In this document: one piece after another, positions 33,890 to 46,158 of the stretch | Position numbering within the stretch: the stretch's first letter is position 1 | Layout of the letters: each line of letters opens with the position of its first letter | NCBI RefSeq assembly: GCF_005281615.1 | Contig: NZ_SZZM01000003.1 | Span: forward strand, 180,010-228,205 | Length of the DNA stretch: 48,196 bases | Direction: 5' to 3' | Source of the DNA: Rhodoligotrophos defluvii | GTDB taxonomy: Bacteria; Pseudomonadota; Alphaproteobacteria; Rhizobiales; Im1 | The notes under the pieces: model-generated | The model's input: only the letters and a program-made list of their open reading frames with translations | Told to the model about the DNA's origin: nothing | The model's database searches: none | Program-made: the position numbers and the translations under genes

Positions 33890-34381
33890 TCAGCCGTTCT
33901 TGACCTCGATGCGCTTGACCTTCGCCTGCGCCTCGGGAGTCTGGGGCAGCTTGATCGTCAGAACCCCGTTCTTGAAGGATGCCTGCGCCTTTTCGCCATC
34001 CACACCGGGAGGGAGCGGAATTGTCCGGTAGATCGCGCCGTAGCTGCGCTCGGACAGGTAATACCCCTTTTTCTCCTCCTGGCGCTCGATCTTCTTCTCC
34101 CCCTTCACAGTCAACATGTCATCGTTGACCGTCACCTCGATGTCCTTCATCTCCATGCCCGGCAGCTCGATCGATACTTCGATCGCCTTGTCGGTCTCGA
34201 CCACGTCGGATTTCGCTTCGCCGCTGCCAAAGGGCCATTCGAAATGACCGACACGGTTCCAGAAGTTCTCGAACACATGGTTCATTTCGCGCTGGAGTGT
34301 CGCGATCGGGTTGTCTTCGCTGCTCTTGGCATCTGGCGCGCCGTCCTTGCGCGCCCAGGGGATGAGGTCTTTGATCTGCAT
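33890..34381 (-). CDS. hsp20: Small heat-shock protein Hsp20 (third in operon)
   Basis: 163 residues. The variable N-terminus (MQIKDLIPWARKDG) is followed by a helical segment (TLQREMNHVFENFWNRVG) and an alpha-crystallin domain with ELPGMEMKDIEVTVNDDMLT and the diagnostic ASFKNGVLTIKLP near residue 140. The C-terminal IxI/V-type anchor is KRIEV. Such chaperones hold unfolding proteins without ATP and pass them to disaggregases like ClpK. AAGGAG precedes the ATG. It follows the second hsp20 by 20 bp. About 115 bp with a small CGCCG/CGGCG hairpin (33858-33872) separate it from psiE. Confidence 0.93.
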   Translation of the reverse strand: MQIKDLIPWARKDGAPDAKSSEDNPIATLQREMNHVFENFWNRVGHFEWPFGSGEAKSDVVETDKAIEVSIELPGMEMKDIEVTVNDDMLTVKGEKKIERQEEKKGYYLSERSYGAIYRTIPLPPGVDGEKAQASFKNGVLTIKLPQTPEAQAKVKRIEVKNG

Positions 34382-34401
34382 GATATGGTCTCCTTCGGTT
34401 T

Positions 34402-34800
34402 TCAGGCGCCCTTGACGGCGATCTTTTTCGGCTGCGCTTCAGGGGCTCGGGGGAGCGTCAGGGTGAGGACACCTCCACGCATCTCGGCTTCGATCCTGTT
34501 GGGGTCGAAGTCCTCGGAAAGCGTGAAGGCACGCTCGAAATCGCCCTCGCCATATTCGGCATAGGCAAGTTCGAGGTTTTCCGGCCGCACCGGGTCAACT
34601 TTGCCGCGGATCGTCAACACACGATTTTCGAGCGTGATCTCGACCGCATCGGCGGCGACCCCAGGCATTTCAAGCATCATGGAGACACCCTGATCGGTCT
34701 CGACGATATCGGTCAACGGGCGGTAGATGCGTCCGCCGCCGGTGGTCTCGGGCGAGTCGGTCGGCGTCTTTTCGGCGGCTTGCGTGATGTCGGTGCTCAT
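34402..34800 (-). CDS. hsp20: Small heat-shock protein Hsp20 (second in operon)
   Basis: 132 residues. A short polar N-terminus precedes an alpha-crystallin domain starting at YRPLTDIVETDQGVSMMLEM, with the signature AEMRGGVLTLTLP near residue 115 and a C-terminal KKIAV anchor. It is the shortest of the three Hsp20 paralogues and lacks the hydrophobic N-terminal helix of the other two, so it may form smaller oligomers or co-assemble. GAGAGGAG lies 8 bp before the ATG. It sits 14 bp after the first hsp20. Confidence 0.93.
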   Translation of the reverse strand: MSTDITQAAEKTPTDSPETTGGGRIYRPLTDIVETDQGVSMMLEMPGVAADAVEITLENRVLTIRGKVDPVRPENLELAYAEYGEGDFERAFTLSEDFDPNRIEAEMRGGVLTLTLPRAPEAQPKKIAVKGA

Positions 34801-34814
34801 CGTTCCAGCTCCTC

Positions 34815-35240
34815 TCAGGCTGCCTTGATCTCGATTTTCTTCGGCTTTTCTTCCTCGGGCCGGGAGATGACGATCCGCAATACGCCGTTCGTCATCCTCG
34901 CCTCGACCTTGTCATCCGAGGCCGCGAACGGCAGGCGGATAGTGCGGGAAAACCTGCCGAAACTGCGTTCGTTGCGGTGCCAGCGCGCACCGTCGGGAAC
35001 CTCGGGCGCCTTGCGTTCGCCCGAAAGCGTCAGGACGTTGTCCTTAACCGAAATCTCAATGTCGCCCGGTTCGATGCCGGGAAGTTCAGCGGCGATGGCA
35101 ACGGCCTCAGGGCCTTGCCAGACATTCACCGCCGGGAACGCCGCGCGGGCCGGCGGCCAGAAACCGCGGTCGAGATCGCGCATCATGGAGCGCATCAGCG
35201 CAAAGGGATCGCTGCGGCGCAGATATGTCGGGTAGAGCAT
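34815..35240 (-). CDS. hsp20: Small heat-shock protein Hsp20 (first in operon)
   Basis: 141 residues. The N-terminus MLYPTYLRRSDPFALMRSMM contains the DPF-LMR-M pattern of class A Hsp20. The alpha-crystallin domain has AAELPGIEPGDIEISVKDNV and the signature ARMTNGVLRIVIS near residue 122; the C-terminal KKIEI is the IxI anchor. It leads the operon hsp20-hsp20-hsp20-psiE-htpX and is preceded by a long structured leader whose strong AGGAGG could be masked (35247-35252), so heat-controlled translation is plausible. Confidence 0.93.
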   Translation of the reverse strand: MLYPTYLRRSDPFALMRSMMRDLDRGFWPPARAAFPAVNVWQGPEAVAIAAELPGIEPGDIEISVKDNVLTLSGERKAPEVPDGARWHRNERSFGRFSRTIRLPFAASDDKVEARMTNGVLRIVISRPEEEKPKKIEIKAA

Positions 35241-35348
35241 TACTGGCCTCCTGTTGCTGATCGATGCCCCCGAACCGTCGGCATGGAGGGACCGGGCAAC
35301 GGTGCCGGCCGGATGTGGGTTCGGAGACCGCCCATCAAGATAGGCGGT
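35241..35348 (-). promoter_or_regulatory. Structured 5' leader of hsp20 operon, candidate ROSE-like RNA thermometer
   Basis: Read on the minus strand, the leader contains hairpin ACCGCC-N10-GGCGGT (35327-35348), a GC-rich CCGGCCGG part, and a 3' structure in which CCTCC (35285-35289) can pair with the GGAGG of the Shine-Dalgarno (35247-35252) around an inner ATGCC/GGCAT stem. Several hairpins ending in a sequestered ribosome-binding site are the plan of alphaproteobacterial ROSE elements. The exact ROSE consensus was not verified. Confidence 0.4.
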
Positions 35349-35359
35349 TCCATTTATTA

Positions 35360-35382
35360 TGCAAGCATATATGATGCGTGCA
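35360..35382. promoter_or_regulatory. Candidate MarR operator in the divergent hsp20/marR promoter
   Basis: TGCAAGCAT (35360-35368) and ATGCGTGCA (35374-35382) are inverted with one mismatch around ATATG. The site sits in the only AT-rich part of the gap between the hsp20 operon and marR. Palindromes of about 20 bp are typical MarR sites, so MarR probably represses both directions. Confidence 0.6.
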
Positions 35383-35442
35383 TTGCACTTTGGATGGAGT
35401 GCGGTCTATCCTATGTCTCATGCAACCGGAGGAAGGATACCT

Positions 35443-35874
35443 ATGATCTCTTCGGACATCGCGCTGATCGGGACGACGATCCACCGGGTCGCGCAGCTCA
35501 TCCAGCAGCGGATCGACCAAGACATCCGCGACAGCGGGCTGACCCGCCTGTCCTGGATGGCGGCGGCGCATGTCGAGGATGCGCCCGGGCTGACCATCGG
35601 CGATCTGGCCGACCGACTTGAGGTCGGCCCGGCCACTGCGGGCCAGCTCGTCGATCGCATGGTCCGGGGCGGCTGGGTCGAGCGGTCGCCCTCGCTCGAC
35701 GACAGGCGGTCGCAGATCGTCACCGCAACGTCGAAGGCCCGGGCGATGCTGGAGGAACTCGCGCCGCGGCAATCGGCGCTCGAACATGAAATCCTGCAGG
35801 ATCTGTCGGCAGACGAAAGGCGCATCCTGCTGGCGCTGCTCGAGCGGATCAGGGCGCGGCTCGGGCGCCAGTGA
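35443..35874 (+). CDS. MarR-family regulator of the stress island
   Basis: 143 residues. MarR winged HTH: LSWMAAAHVEDAPGLTIGDL, ADRLEVGPATAGQLVDRMVR, and the wing SPSLDDRRSQIVTATSKARA. The ATG at 35443 is chosen because GGAGGAAGG lies 5-14 bp upstream; the open frame extends further left without a ribosome-binding site. It is divergent from the hsp20 operon and 14 bp before ftsH, so it likely heads the ftsH-clpK transcript and represses both sides through the 35360-35382 palindrome. The inducer is unknown. Regulators of described tLST loci differ, so this may mark a lineage variant. Confidence 0.88.
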   Translation: MISSDIALIGTTIHRVAQLIQQRIDQDIRDSGLTRLSWMAAAHVEDAPGLTIGDLADRLEVGPATAGQLVDRMVRGGWVERSPSLDDRRSQIVTATSKARAMLEELAPRQSALEHEILQDLSADERRILLALLERIRARLGRQ

Positions 35875-35888
35875 AAGGGACAAGCGGC

Positions 35889-37721
35889 ATGGAAAGGAAG
35901 ACCGAATATAACATCTGGTACTGGGTGGTGGCTTTCATAGCCGTGCTTTTCATCCAGAACCTGATCGCCGGCTGGCAATCCGTCGCACCGATCAGCTACA
36001 GCCAGTTCGAGAGCTATCTCGAGGATGGCAGGGTCGCGTCCGTCGCGGTCGGCGCGGACACCATCACCGGCACCTTCACCGACCCCGTCGACGGCAAGAG
36101 CCAGTTCGTCACCACGGTCGTGGATCCCGCGATCCTGCAGCGGATCGACCGCTCCGGCGTCGAGATCACGGGCGTTCCTCAGAACACCTTTCTCGGCACG
36201 CTGATTTCCTGGGTGGCGCCAGCGCTTGTCTTCTTCGGAATCTGGATGCTGCTGTTCCGTAAGTTCGCCGACAAACAGGGTTTCGGCGGGTTCATGCAGG
36301 TCGGCCGCAGCAAGGCCAAGGTTTACATGGAAAAAGAAACCGGCGTCAGCTTCGCCGACGTGGCCGGTGTGGACGAGGCCAAGGCCGAGCTCGAGGAGGT
36401 CGTAGAGTTCCTCAGGAACCCCGCCGAATACGGAAAGCTGGGCGCACATATCCCCAAAGGCATATTGCTTGTCGGGCCGCCGGGCACCGGCAAGACGCTT
36501 CTAGCGCGCGCAGTGGCAGGCGAGGCCGGCGTGACCTTCTTTTCGATCTCGGGCTCCGAGTTCGTCGAGATGTTCGTGGGCGTCGGTGCCGCGCGGGTGC
36601 GCGACCTCTTCGAGCAGGCTCGGAAATCCGCGCCGGCGATCATCTTCATCGACGAACTCGACGCTCTCGGGCGGGCGCGCTCCTCCGGCCAGATCGCTGG
36701 CGGCCACGATGAGCGTGAGCAGACGCTGAACCAGCTTCTGACCGAGCTCGACGGCTTCGACCCTTCGGTGGGCATCGTGCTCCTGGCCGCCACCAACCGA
36801 CCAGAGATCCTCGACCCCGCGCTGCTGCGTGCGGGACGCTTCGACCGGCAGGTGCTGGTGGATCGGCCGGATAAGAAGGGACGTGTGCAGATTCTCGGCG
36901 TTCACATGAAAAAGGTGAAGCTCGCCCCGGACGTCGATGCCGAGAAGGTCGCAGCGCTTACTCCCGGCTTTTCCGGGGCCGACCTCGCCAATCTCGTCAA
37001 CGAGGCAGCATTGCTCGCCACGCGCCGCAAGGCTGATGCGGTGACGATGGACGACTTCAACAATGCCGTCGAGCGCATCATCGCAGGGTTGGAAAAGAAG
37101 AACCGCGTGCTCAATCCGCGCGAACGCGAGATCGTGGCGCACCACGAGATGGGGCACGCGCTGGTCGCGATGGCTCTGCCGGGGGTGGATCCGGTGCACA
37201 AGGTCTCGATCATACCGCGCGGCATCGGCGCGCTCGGCTACACCATCCAGCGGCCGACCGAGGACCGCTTCCTGATGACCCGCGAGGAGCTGGAGAACAA
37301 GATCGCCGTGCTGCTGGGCGGGCGCGCGGCCGAGAAGATCGTCTACGACCACCTCTCGACCGGGGCGGCCGACGATCTGGTCAAGGCCACCGATATCGCC
37401 CGCGCCATGGTCGCGCGGTACGGGATGGACGAAGACCTCGGGCATGTCAGCTACGACACCGATCGGCCCGGCTTTCTCGGCACCGGTGACCAGTCGTCGT
37501 GGCTGAACCGCCGCTACGGCGAGGCCACTGCCGAGCGGATGGACGCGAAGGTGCGCGACATCGTGGATGGCGTGTTCAAGCGCACCCTCTCGCTTCTCGA
37601 AGCCAACCGGGCGCTGCTCGAGCAATCGGCGCAGGATCTCCTGCAACGGGAGACACTGGACGAGCCCGATCTGGTGGCAATTGGGGCCAAGGTGAAAAGA
37701 ACGGAAGCGGTCGCTGCGTAA
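35889..37721 (+). CDS. ftsH: AAA+ membrane metalloprotease FtsH
   Basis: 610 residues. Two N-terminal transmembrane helices ([19 protein letters not shown] and [16 protein letters not shown]) flank a periplasmic domain. AAA: Walker A GPPGTGKT (about 196-203), Walker [12 protein letters not shown] (about 250), and the pore FVG within [20 protein letters not shown]. Peptidase: HEMGH at about 418-422. It is complete but lacks a long acidic C-terminal tail. The ATG at 35889 has AAGGGA upstream. An extra FtsH is a hallmark of tLST-type islands, where it degrades damaged membrane and cytosolic proteins. It overlaps nothing and is 14 bp after marR. Confidence 0.94.
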
Positions 37722-37784: not shown

Positions 37785-40691
<2,907 letters not shown>

Positions 40692-40735: not shown

Positions 40736-40769
40736 ATTTCGTCGGAGGGTTGCAGGAAGGATCCGCGGC

Positions 40770-41909
40770 ATGGAAGTCATCAGAGCATTTCGCAATCTTG
40801 ACCGGCACGGCCAACAGCGCGCGCCTGAGGTCATCGAGGAAGAGGTGCGGCAACTTGAACCGCATCTTATACGCTTCCGCGAGAATCTCGTCCGGCTCGA
40901 AGTCGTCGCCTCGCAGACGAGGGGCAAGACGCGCATCAAAGGCGGCCTGCGCCTGCAACTGCCATCGGGCGTGATCGCGGCGCAGGAAGAGGGGTTCGAG
41001 ATCGAGCCGGTCCTGCGCAAGGCCTTTGCCGACCTGCGCCACCAGGTCGATCGGCATGTGGCGCGCCTCAAGCACGAGCCGGAGTACAAGCGTCCCGCCC
41101 GCCGGCGCCGGATCGGCGCCCCGCTGCCGCCCGCGCGGGATGCGGCGGAGGCGGAGCGGCGCCAACTCTTCTTCGACCTGATCGAGGATCATCTCGATAC
41201 GGTCTACGACACCGTCAGGCGCGAGTTGACCTATCTCGAATGCAGCGGATCTGTGCCGGAGGGTTACCTCAGCGTTCGCGATCTTGTCGATGCGACGATC
41301 CTCAAGGGACTGGAAAGGTTCGAGCAGCGGCCCACCGAGTTTTCCATAGGCGACTGGCTGCTGAAACTGGCTTTCGAGACCATCGAGGCCGAGGCGCGCG
41401 CCGCGCGCCGCGCGGTGCCGGAGGACGCCGCCTCGATCGACGCGAAACCCGAGACTCCGGCCGAGGAACCCACCGAGTCGGACGAGGAGATGTTCGAGTT
41501 CTACCAGCCCGACGACGTGCTGCTGCTCGAGGAGCTCATCGCCGACGACGGCGGGGACGACCCCGAAACGGCGGTCGCGAAACGGCAGGACGGGCTGGCC
41601 CTTCACCGGGCGATCGCCGGTCTGCCGGCGCTATGGCGCAGGGTTCTGTTTCTTGTCGACCTGAACGACACCCCGCTTGAAACGGCCTCCTCGGTTCTCG
41701 GCATTCCCGAAGACGACGTGACCCGGATCGCCCAAGCGGCGCGCGATTATCTTCGCGATAAACTGCGCGACTCAGGTCAGTCTTCCGATACCGTTCATGC
41801 GCTGTTTGACAGTGCTCATCAGAGAGGGTCGCGAATTCCCCAGCCCCTGCGGGATCGCGCCCGGCTGGAACACGCTTTTCTGGGAGACAACCGAGGGGTA
41901 GCACCATGA
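40770..41909 (+). CDS. Fusion of HPF/RaiA-like ribosome-hibernation domain and sigma-70-like protein
   Basis: 379 residues. Residues 15-105 align with HPF/RaiA: VIEEEVRQLEPHLIRFRENL, VRLEVVASQ, LRLQLPSGVIAAQEEGFEIE, LRKAFADLRHQVDRHVARLK. Residues about 130-210 look like sigma region 2 (LFFDLIEDHLDTVYDTVRRE, then DLVDATILKGLERFEQRPTE). A long acidic linker follows (EEPTESDEEMFEFYQPDD). Residues about 290-345 match sigma region 4 (LHRAIAGLPALWRRVLFLVD, LGIPEDDVTRIAQAARDYLR). HPF dimerises or inactivates ribosomes in stress; sigma domains recruit RNA polymerase. The joint function is inferred. GGAAGGA precedes the ATG; the stop overlaps the next gene (ATGA). Confidence 0.75.
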   Translation: MEVIRAFRNLDRHGQQRAPEVIEEEVRQLEPHLIRFRENLVRLEVVASQTRGKTRIKGGLRLQLPSGVIAAQEEGFEIEPVLRKAFADLRHQVDRHVARLKHEPEYKRPARRRRIGAPLPPARDAAEAERRQLFFDLIEDHLDTVYDTVRRELTYLECSGSVPEGYLSVRDLVDATILKGLERFEQRPTEFSIGDWLLKLAFETIEAEARAARRAVPEDAASIDAKPETPAEEPTESDEEMFEFYQPDDVLLLEELIADDGGDDPETAVAKRQDGLALHRAIAGLPALWRRVLFLVDLNDTPLETASSVLGIPEDDVTRIAQAARDYLRDKLRDSGQSSDTVHALFDSAHQRGSRIPQPLRDRARLEHAFLGDNRGVAP

Positions 41910-42481
41910 TGCGCGGTCACAATCGTCCACCCTTTCCGCCGAAGATACCCGGGACCGATATGAGGTCGTGGGACGTTCCGACGGCGATCATCTACCGGCC
42001 GGCTCGTTCCGCGATGACATCGGCGCCGCGGCCCAACGACTGGATACTGGAATTTGAACCGTCGCGCCCGCCCCAAATCGAGCCGCTGATGGGATATACC
42101 TCCAGCGACGATCCCTATCGTCCGCTCCGGCTGAAATTCCCTGACCGCGAAAGCGCGGTCGAATTCGCGGAGCGGCAGGACTGGCGCTATTTCGTGCGTG
42201 AGGACACAGCTCACCGGCATGCGCCTGCCCGCTGGCGGGGAGAGGAGCGGCATCGCCTCTACAAGGGAGCCGACGCCCCGGACGCCTTTCGCATACCGTC
42301 CCGCCTGGATCGGGGTCGCACGGATCACCGCCTCCGGCGCGCGGTCGAGGAGAAAGGCACGGTGGACCTGTCGTCGCAAGAACAGGCCGAATTCGATCCG
42401 GTGCTCGAAGCCTCGCTCGAATCCTTCCCGGCCTCCGATCCCCCAGCCTGGACGGGCGTGACGATCGCCGGGAAAAAATAA
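41906..42481 (+). CDS. NDUFS4-like (ETC complex I 18-kDa subunit domain) protein
   Basis: 191 residues. Residues 25-95 match the ETC_C1_NDUFS4 domain: AIIYRPARSAMTSAPRPNDW, ILEFEPSRPPQIEPLMGYTS, and LRLKFPDRESAVEFAERQDW. A charged middle follows, then a C-terminal short motif FDPVLEASLESFPASDPPAW seen as a tail on varied small bacterial proteins. Normal NDUFS4 is an accessory complex I subunit; no nuo genes are here. A stress-specific partner of complex I or a reused fold are both possible. It overlaps the preceding stop by 4 bp, so the two are coupled. Confidence 0.8.
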   Translation: MMRGHNRPPFPPKIPGTDMRSWDVPTAIIYRPARSAMTSAPRPNDWILEFEPSRPPQIEPLMGYTSSDDPYRPLRLKFPDRESAVEFAERQDWRYFVREDTAHRHAPARWRGEERHRLYKGADAPDAFRIPSRLDRGRTDHRLRRAVEEKGTVDLSSQEQAEFDPVLEASLESFPASDPPAWTGVTIAGKK

Positions 42482-44626: not shown

Positions 44627-45307
44627 ATGCATGGCGTGACCGGATTTGTCGAGAGTGCGGCCTTGTTGGTCTTTGCCGCGTTCGTGCTCGTGACGATATG
44701 TTCACGGATTGGCGTGCCCAGCATTGTCGGTTACATTCTTGCCGGTATAGTCATTGGACCCGCCGGCCTCGGCCTGATTGCCGAAAACGCTGCCCTTAGC
44801 AGCATTGGCGAGATCGGAGTGGTGCTGCTGCTGTTCGCGCTTGGCCTGGAATTCTCGTTCGAGAAGCTCGTAAGGCTCAGGATGCATGTCTTCGGTCTTG
44901 GAGCCGTGCAGGTTGCAGTCACGACGATAACGGTGTCGTTGATAGCGAGTCTGATCTTCGATCTCGCGCCCGTCCCCGCAATCCTCATCGGCGGGGCCGT
45001 TGCCATGTCATCCACGGCCATGTGCCTCAAGGTGCTCGCAAGCGCGAACGCTCTGGGATCGGCCCAAGGACGCCTGGCCATTGCGGTGCTTCTGTTTCAA
45101 GACTTGGCAGCTGTCGCATTCCTGCTTCTGCACGATTCGATGAGTGGAGCCGCCGAAGGGTATGGCGTGATAACGGTCGTCGCCAGTGCAACGGCATTGG
45201 TTGCAGCTCTGTTCATTGCCCGTGGCCCGTTGCAGTTGCTGGCCCGTTGGGTAGCGTCGCGTGGCGATCCGGAACTTGCCCAGCTTCTCGCGCTCACCAT
45301 TGCGCTA
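44627..45307 (+). pseudogene. kefB: KefB-type cation/proton antiporter, truncated by IS5
   Basis: 227 genuine codons of a CPA2 antiporter: MHGVTGFVESAALLVFAAFV, then GVPSIVGYILAGIVIGPAGL, LLLFALGLEFSFEKLVRL, and LLFQDLAAVAFLLLHDSM, giving about seven helices. At LTIALG (45307) the IS5 element begins; the frame reads on into IS DNA and stops at 45424. The remaining helices and the RCK/TrkA-N domain are missing and do not reappear beyond the IS. KefB-type proteins extrude potassium when electrophiles are present. AGGAG precedes the ATG. Confidence 0.9.
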
Positions 45308-46158
45308 GGGCGTGTTGACAAAAGGGATTCACCGGGCGCGGTGATCGTGATTCAAGCTGGTATCTGCAATGGAGACCAGCGTGGCACGAAACCTGATGTC
45401 GAACGACGAGTGGGCGTTCTTTGAACGCTTCATCCTGGCTGTCCGTTCTCCGAACGGCCGCAAGCCCACGAACCATCGGCTTGTTCTGGATGGGATTTTC
45501 TGGATCGCCCGAACGGGGTCGCCCTGGCGCGACCTGCCGGAAGAGTTCGGCAAATGGTCGTCTGTCTATCGGCAGTTCCGGCGCTGGACGTTGGCGGGGC
45601 TGTGGGAACAGATCCTGGAGGCGCTGAACGAGAGCCGGATCGTGCCGGATGCGCTGCAGATGATCGACAGCACCGTGGTTCGCGCTCATCATCAGGCAGC
45701 GGGCGCAAAAGGGGGACTCCGCGCCAAGGTTTCGGCCGCTCGCGAGGTGGCTTCACGACCAAGATCCATCTGCGGGTCAATGCGGCAGGCCTGCCCATGA
45801 GAACCGAGATCACGGCCGGGCAGACATCGGACTACCTCGGCTTCGATCTGGTCATGGCTGACAACCTGCCCGAGCCAAGCGTTCTGCTCGCAGACCGCGG
45901 CTACGACTCCGACAACATCCGCAAGACCATGGAGGTGCGCGACGTGGTGCCGGTCATCCCCATGCGCAAAACCCGGAAGCTACGGGTCGCCGTTGACCGC
46001 AGGCTCTACCGCCTGCGCAATCTCGTTGAGCGGTGCTTCAACAAGCTCAAGAATGCCCGTCGCGTCGCCACCCGCTACGACAAGACCGCCGAAAGCTTCC
46101 TGGGCTTCATCGACATCACGTCGATCCGCCTCTGGCTCCGCCATTTGTCAACATGACC
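45308..46158 (+). mobile_element. IS5-family (IS427-like) insertion sequence
   Basis: 851 bp. The ends GGGCGTGTTGACAAAAGG (45308-45325) and CCATTTGTCAACATGACC (46141-46158) are inverted repeats matching 15 of 18. A TA dinucleotide flanks both sides (45306-45307 and 46159-46160), fitting a 2-bp target duplication. It carries a two-frame transposase and interrupts kefB, but no kefB sequence continues on the other side. Confidence 0.9.
45369..46156 (+). CDS. IS5-family transposase, two frames joined by -1 frameshift
   Basis: The first frame (45369-45800) gives LMSNDEWAFFERFILAV, RTGSPWRDLPEEFGKWSSVY and the first catalytic D in LQMIDSTVVRAHHQAAG. The second frame, active from about 45715 to 46156, gives GRSRGGFTTKIHLRVNAAGL, the second D in LLADRGYDSDNIR, and the E in LRNLVERCFNKLKNARRVAT. 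GCAAAAGGGGG at 45705-45715 lies exactly at the transition and is a slippery sequence of the type used by IS427-group elements. The transposase therefore looks intact. Confidence 0.88.

Follow-up and report, generated by a model that had tools for sequence, protein, structure and literature searches.

Coupling between ribosomes and sigma factors in bacteria is usually discussed through separate agents such as (p)ppGpp, Rsd and RMF. The NepR-PhyR pair is an alphaproteobacterial switch, STAS is the fold of anti-anti-sigma factors, and the ribosome hibernation factor Balon is akin to the group of bacterial archaeo-eukaryotic release factors (baeRF). Sigma factors meet the RNA polymerase core over a surface that includes region 2.1, and in ECF factors the linker between the two sigma domains threads the polymerase cleft. 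In the part of PMC10901736 available to us, a figure legend gives Hsp20, HdeD, RaiA and "alternative sigma70 factors" as neighbours of Balon in its operons. The heat-resistance island of Escherichia coli (tLST) holds a gene, orf11, for whose product the accessible sections of PMC4563881, PMC5383660 and PMC5347186 give no function.

Here we describe a gene of Rhodoligotrophos defluvii whose product joins an HPF/RaiA-like domain to a sigma-factor-like half. It lies in a stretch of 48,196 nucleotides (contig NZ_SZZM01000003.1), which is called the window below. The existence of the fusion is confirmed, and its earlier interpretation is, taken as a whole, partly supported. The first-pass annotation had stated that no system of this architecture was described. 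The literature searched, mostly open and without supplements, agrees in that no HPF and sigma fusion appears among the papers listed; relatives do, however, sit unrecognised in published tLST and plasmid annotations.

The fusion gene and its island

The fusion gene is the fourth in a series on one strand, after genes for a MarR-type regulator, FtsH and ClpK. Its parts and neighbours in the window are listed here; P0001 denotes the fusion protein of the window (the query), P0002 is E. coli Orf11, and L-numbers are homologous loci.

33890..35240, minus strand: three hsp20 genes, divergent and upstream (annotation in L106)
35359..35874, plus strand: MarR-type regulator gene (annotation in L106)
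35871..37721, plus strand: ftsH gene (profile matches)
37785..40691, plus strand: clpK/clpG-type disaggregase gene, ending 78 bp upstream of the fusion gene (ClpK model)
40754..40760, plus strand: ribosome-binding-site-like AGGAAGG, 9 bases 5′ of the fusion-gene ATG (sequence reading)
40770-41909, plus strand: fusion gene, a single unbroken frame of 379 aa, ATG at 40770, stop ending at 41909
40770..41081, plus strand: HPF/RaiA-like (S30AE) domain, residues 1-104 (profiles, predicted structure, Foldseek)
41082..41120, plus strand: basic linker including KRPARRRR, residues 105-117 (sequence, alignment, AlphaFold2 model)
41136..41417, plus strand: sigma region 2-like domain, residues 123-216 (TIGR02937, models, conservation)
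41484..41537, plus strand: residues 239-256, an acidic stretch of the linker between the sigma-like domains, containing EEMFEFYQPDD (conservation, 31 rows)
41556..41783, plus strand: sigma region 4-like domain, residues 263-338 (Pfam, model, Foldseek)
41706..41747, plus strand: acidic helix, residues 313-326, where sigma factors have the -35 recognition helix (charge comparison)
41784..41909, plus strand: variable C-terminal tail, residues 339-379, plus stop (least information among 18 segments)
41906..42481, plus strand: NDUS4-like gene, its ATG overlapping the fusion-gene stop (ATGA)

The single-chain architecture of 379 residues claimed by the first-pass annotation is borne out by the intact frame and by both folds, which profiles, models and Foldseek recover. 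The domain limits lie nearer 1-104 and 123-338 than its 15-105 and 130-345. All 31 rows of one family alignment (A1) begin at the same codon. The clpK product scores 1600 bits against the ClpK model, below the cutoff of 1900. A search of the genome found one copy of the fusion gene and, at another place, one PF02482 (HPF) gene, together with 13 other loci above the sigma70-ECF cutoff and one PhyR above the PhyR cutoff.

A consensus scan, which says little for an alphaproteobacterium, gave no promoter-like site in the gap between clpK and the fusion gene (two sites in 10.3 kb against 1.3 expected), and no Rfam match was obtained across the window at the gathering threshold. Directly upstream of the MarR-type gene, at 35327-35348, lies an inverted repeat, ACCGCCCATC/GATAGGCGGT, with similar sequence in most of 12 other aligned rows; L048 differs in both arms at once, some others, e.g. 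L044, in a single arm. The repeat may be an operator for the operon's own MarR regulator. Further downstream, within 44627-46156, a kefB-like frame is apparently shortened and followed by ORFs at 45369-46156 that we take to be transposase-like, so that an insertion sequence seems to have broken the kefB-like gene.

The HPF-like N-terminal domain

Residues 20-101 of P0001 match Pfam S30AE with E = 0.003 and 18.7 bits, below the cutoff of 23.7, and matches at E up to 1 were seen in 20 of 24 diverse members (best 2.8e-6). When ten members were scanned singly, three exceeded the cutoff (L041, L100 and L102), while P0002, L004 and L091 gave no match at E 0.05. Six of the seven Acidobacteriota members lie above it, with up to 44.3 bits. 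An AlphaFold2 model of the whole chain, built on an alignment of 31 homologs, has a mean pLDDT of 69.8 and a pTM of 0.50 (94 of 379 residues below 50). Its residues 2-100 adopt the HPF topology of strand-helix-strand-strand-strand-helix with a pLDDT of about 85 (block range 76 to 89). Searched against the PDB with Foldseek, the model matched the HPF proteins of E. coli (2rql; target TM 0.84, 2.3 Å, E 1.5e-3) and Vibrio cholerae (4hei; target TM 0.87, E 5e-3). The HPF assignment, for which the profile match of P0001 alone falls short of the cutoff, is thereby upheld.

Profile-profile comparison with 30 PF02482 proteins gave probabilities of 75 for the alphaproteobacterial members, 93.9 for the betaproteobacterial, 97.7 for the Acidobacteriota and 49.7 for the orf11 group, with crossed controls at 6.6 at most. 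Judged from these profiles, the match appears strong for the beta and Acidobacteriota members, less so for alpha and weak for the orf11 group, whose HPF homology seems to depend mainly on alignment with the rest of the fusion family. A chance resemblance to HPF is ruled out, since relatives from another phylum pass the Pfam cutoff, Foldseek agrees and the crossed controls are low.

Helix 2 of the domain was compared between 24 fusion members and the 30 PF02482 proteins, a 31st, L180, being left out because it had been taken in a wrong frame. R95 is basic in all 24 members and in 93% of the PF02482 proteins, and still ranks among the best-conserved positions once the Acidobacteriota are added; positions 99 and 101 are basic in 75% of members. 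At positions 88, 94, 97 and 98 basic residues are mostly lost relative to the PF02482 proteins (basic in 0-17% of members), and the helix carries a charge of +1.8, where theirs has +5.0. The domain as a whole shows no such deficit, at +5.0 in the members and +3.6 in the PF02482 proteins, and ribosome binding by it appears plausible.

Distribution and gene neighbourhoods

The first-pass annotation had proposed a search for the same two-domain architecture and its neighbours, which returned a family on chromosomal loci and plasmids with a recurrent link to chaperone genes. Scanning 84,980 species at one genome apiece gave 67 loci, of which 66 are fusion members in Alphaproteobacteria, as assigned from record titles and genera; L097 matches in the sigma part only. 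Three of the 66 are partial (L093, L095 and L096) and two are in two pieces (L086 and L094). In 63 of them the match extends from residue 1 to at least residue 372, with 60-99% identity in the best segment, which together with the single open frame rules out two genes misread as one.

Plasmids of beta- and gammaproteobacteria also carry relatives. A tblastn match was found in 291 plasmid records, with at least 80% query coverage in 21, and those with a protein match include Klebsiella (125), Enterobacter (73) and Acinetobacter (32). The laboratory strain Methylorubrum extorquens AM1 has a relative on NC_012811 with 72.7% identity. Annotations of these relatives read sigma-70, sigma-28 or "flagellar biosynthesis protein FliA". 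One Cupriavidus plasmid has a second, split copy (L193 8001-8897) that is annotated as two proteins and lies close to metal-efflux genes.

Among 398 genomes sampled from the phylum to which the window belongs, three have both halves and two more match beyond sigma4. One of these, G297, looks like a broken copy; the other (L005/L112, G103:C1:1652-2239) is a 238-aa sigma-like frame with the QPD motif (EEFYEWYQPDE) and without an HPF domain, a stand-alone protein that is possibly an ancestor or an offshoot of the fusion. Among the Acidobacteriota, 149 genomes were sampled; nine gave a match with E no higher than 1e-12, seven of them with both halves in one frame. Since the phylum searches score no more than a few top candidates in each genome, absences in them are not proof. 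In the tree, the Acidobacteriota rows split from the proteobacterial rows (97/97, with a long-branch warning), and the orf11 rows group with L004, whose genome belongs to the same class as that of the window.

Neighbourhoods were compared with 22 query genes, the fusion included, across 76 loci (66 alphaproteobacterial and 10 plasmid). ClpK is present in 67 of them and, among the 73 loci having at least 1.5 kb upstream, is the nearest upstream query gene on the same strand in 62; the place of the fusion behind clpK, as first noted, stands. The nearest downstream query gene is HdeD in 48/76 and NDUS4 in 16/76. On Burkholderia-type plasmids the fusion lies near hsp20, groEL and dnaK genes.

In three of the seven Acidobacteriota loci (L201, L203 and L205), the next gene on the same strand encodes a baeRF family 10 protein; these three form one clade of the tree and are not independent. 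In one locus (L204 7599-7997, minus strand) the fusion is followed by a STAS-domain gene, and neither gene was seen adjoining it in the other three. The window's genome gave no match to baeRF family 10, the one family searched. Some of the "alternative sigma70 factors" beside Balon may themselves be members of the fusion family.

Relation to Orf11 of the E. coli heat-resistance island

Matches in Escherichia, Enterobacter, Acinetobacter and Klebsiella reach about 26% over residues 42-340. Four such loci, one from each genus, were examined, and all four lie in tLST islands, between hdeD-GI and trx-GI in three and after hdeD-GI in Acinetobacter. In the gene order given by PMC8290217, orf11 stands at this place. 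The fusion family and Orf11 share homology along the chain and a stress-island setting with ClpK and Hsp20. A DNA search of 5426 complete E. coli genomes matched the gene at this place in 152, with 80% or more of its length covered in 144.

The accessible part of PMC7010813 reports 11 island proteins detected in a tLST proteome, one of them an unnamed hypothetical protein that may or may not be Orf11. As far as the available text of PMC8407380 goes, 7 of 13 deletions in the E. coli tLST lowered heat or chlorine resistance and that of orf11 was not among them; the study worked with one strain, following oxidation and how well cells survived brief exposure to heat or chlorine. This result is the main caution on the role proposed below.

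The sigma-like half and its recognition helix

The second half of P0001 matches the sigma70-ECF model TIGR02937 over residues 136-332 with 44.1 bits, above the cutoff of 42.9, and Pfam Sigma70_r4_2 over residues 277-325 with E = 4.5e-4 and 20.2 bits, below the cutoff of 25.7; the latter matches 23 of 24 diverse members at E up to 1. Besides the HPF topology, the whole-chain model contains two helical sigma domains, and a separate model of residues 118-340 reached a pLDDT of 80.2 and a pTM of 0.74. With the whole model, Foldseek retrieved ECF sigma factors (best E 3.2e-4; target TM 0.70 for SigW and 0.68 for RpoE with NepR), and with the sigma part all matches listed (50 of 255) were sigma factors. 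The sigma4-like domain superposes on the sigma4 domain of Mycobacterium tuberculosis in 3hug within 1.0-2.3 Å. Profile and predicted structures hence agree with the sigma-like identity first read from the sequence.

The helix that stands where sigma factors have their -35 reader departs from this likeness. Over residues 313-326, the mean net charge was -2.6 in 74 family rows, which include near-copies, fragments (L003, L086 and L095) and the stand-alone L005, against +2.8 in 48 sigma factors, all of which have letters there. The comparison was repeated with L005 and PhyR kept apart, using 24 rows of a family alignment (A2) and seven Acidobacteriota rows, 31 dereplicated to 22, and sigma factors dereplicated from 48 to 32. 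The charges were then -1.9 (n=22, range -4 to 0) and +2.5 (n=32, range -1 to 4), with overlap at -1 and 0. The sigma factors were picked by similarity to the fusion-family profile, with rows from the L086, L093 and PhyR loci removed beforehand, and so are not a random sample. Lysine or arginine occupies position 320 in 66% of sigma factors and 9% of members, position 323 in 78% and 0%, position 325 in 72% and 45%, and position 319 in 6% and 50%; aspartate or glutamate occupies 316 in 0% of sigma factors and 73% of members. The same helix has a charge of -2 in the host's own PhyR and 0 in L005.

Pfam models of the PhyR sigma-like part found ten of the 24 members when E values up to 1 were allowed, and exceeded the cutoff in four of the seven Acidobacteriota members. 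No Pfam PhyR model matched P0001, its score with the NCBIfam PhyR model was weak (16.5 of 240 bits), and none of ten singly scanned proteobacterial members scored above the PhyR cutoff, the best reaching 25.6 of 27. Helix charge and PhyR-model matches together suggest that the -35 reader looks altered in every clade seen and is probably disabled. Among the roles first suggested for the sigma-like half, the acidic -35 helix, the loss of K/R at 320 and 323 and the PhyR-model matches speak against its release as an active sigma factor; a decoy or anti-sigma role would fit better.

A proposed role and its alternatives

We propose that the fusion is a ribosome-docking sigma mimic, an adaptor of stress islands with two working ends, a reading that on present sequence evidence we rate as evenly poised between right and wrong. 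Upon translation collapse, under heat or similar stress, the HPF domain would dock on empty 30S or 70S ribosomes. The sigma-like half would read no promoters and would act as a decoy, binding a protein that normally binds sigma factors. Candidate partners are an anti-sigma factor, whose capture would free a host stress sigma factor in the manner of PhyR, or the RNA polymerase core; since NepR-PhyR is alphaproteobacterial, the partner in other classes would be something else. Docking would alter the exposure of the sigma-like half, and ribosome idling would in this way be passed on to transcription, a link that is possible. The fuller claim, that one protein senses empty ribosomes through its HPF domain and signals to the transcription machinery through its sigma mimic, and so forms a stress switch that links ribosome and RNA polymerase directly, carried by mobile proteostasis islands and present in Acidobacteriota as well, we advance only tentatively and with more doubt than confidence.

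The pattern of conservation bears on a first alternative, in which the protein is a double brake: HPF parks ribosomes while the sigma-like half fills the sigma site of the RNA polymerase core, and both are stored during heat stress. The best conserved of 18 segments is the QPD segment in the linker (3.00 bits), with Q246 and D248 in 31/31 rows and P247 in 30/31. The region 2.1-like segment follows (2.79 bits), as a core-binding part might while the -35-reading helix is altered, and R151, E152, G160 and D174 of the region 2-like domain are among the 28 best-conserved positions. The linker between the sigma domains is strongly acidic, with a mean charge of -9.3 across fusion-family rows, which would also suit a brake, but only one of 48 sigma rows has letters there and 4/48 align in the region 2 or -10 surface, so that in neither part is the charge comparable with that of sigma factors. 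The PhyR resemblance points to anti-sigma factors instead, and orf11 is absent from the deletions with a heat or chlorine defect in the accessible part of PMC8407380. We consider such a brake unlikely.

Selection was assessed by dN/dS in ten chosen pairs and four segments. All 39 computable values (of 40) were below 1, which rules out a pseudogene, and the tested segments, the sigma-like half included, appear to be under purifying selection. Within the gene, P0001 and its relative in Brucella pecoris (L041) differ unevenly. In 30-residue windows to residue 210 nucleotide identity is 88-99% (97-99% in 151-210), and over residues 211-379 it falls through 82, 79, 62, 49 and 40%. At synonymous sites the two genes diverge by 0.14 over the sigma2-like part but by 1.20 over the sigma4-like part. 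Given this drop within the gene, the sigma4-like part and tail look to have been swapped as a cassette. Such exchange would be fitting if this part has to deal with partners that vary from host to host.

That the protein is a functional alternative sigma factor, which its HPF domain keeps on ribosomes until it is released for stress genes and whose drifted HTH reads an unusual promoter, is quite improbable. It would account for the TIGR02937 score above cutoff, the conservation of the region 2.1-like and 2.2-like (2.44 bits) segments, the K/R gained at 319 by half of the members and the sigma-factor names in plasmid annotations. It sits badly, however, with a helix that is acidic or neutral (charge of 0 or below) in alpha, beta, gamma and Acidobacteriota members alike, and with a sigma4-like part that is the most divergent of the gene between P0001 and L041. 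Similarly hard to credit is a protein that is mainly a ribosome protector, with a working HPF domain and a sigma-like half that is a relic or a ribosome-facing extension: the extra module of HibA is thought to fill vacant ribosomal sites (in the available part of PMC13324472) and it is in the sigma4-like half that P0001 and L041 differ most, but the sigma-like half is under apparent purifying selection, keeps its predicted fold and adjoins the most conserved segment.

Comparison with known systems

Should the proposed sigma mimic prove right, bacteria would have a one-protein link between ribosome state and sigma-factor control. The gene at the orf11 place gains a testable identity, and heat-resistance islands may manage ribosomes besides protein aggregates. 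The family is linked to chaperone genes in three proteobacterial classes.

Among ECF sigma factors, SigG1 (7qh5) is one with a fused regulatory domain. The fusion shares with ECF factors the sigma2 and sigma4 folds and the TIGR02937 match, and differs from them in its acidic recognition helix, its N-terminal HPF-like domain and the QPD segment in its linker. With HPF/RaiA (protein Y) it has in common the strand-helix-strand-strand-strand-helix fold, R95 of helix 2 and a stress context. HPF/RaiA proteins lack a sigma-like half, whereas the fusion has a less basic helix 2 and, in P0001, a match below the Pfam cutoff; no further HPF-type domain appears among the Pfam matches of P0001.

PhyR likewise has a sigma-like half in which an acidic helix replaces the -35 reader, and it belongs to a stress system, the alphaproteobacterial general stress response, as far as the sources available to us describe it. 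In place of the receiver domain of PhyR, which Pfam does not find in P0001, the fusion has an HPF domain, and unlike PhyR its family occurs outside the Alphaproteobacteria. Orf11 is homologous to P0001 along the chain, lies in the same kind of island and keeps the QPD motif (as QHD in P0002); it is about 25% identical, follows hdeD-GI rather than clpK and has a two-residue insert in the HTH turn that P0001 lacks.

In the part of PMC13324472 available to us, the archaeal protein HibA also fuses an HPF/RaiA domain to a domain of other function. There, in contrast to the fusion, the HPF domain is C-terminal and the fused part is a CBS module. Balon, a bacterial hibernation factor of the aeRF1 type, touches the family through the baeRF genes directly downstream of the fusion in three of the seven Acidobacteriota loci but is a separate protein.
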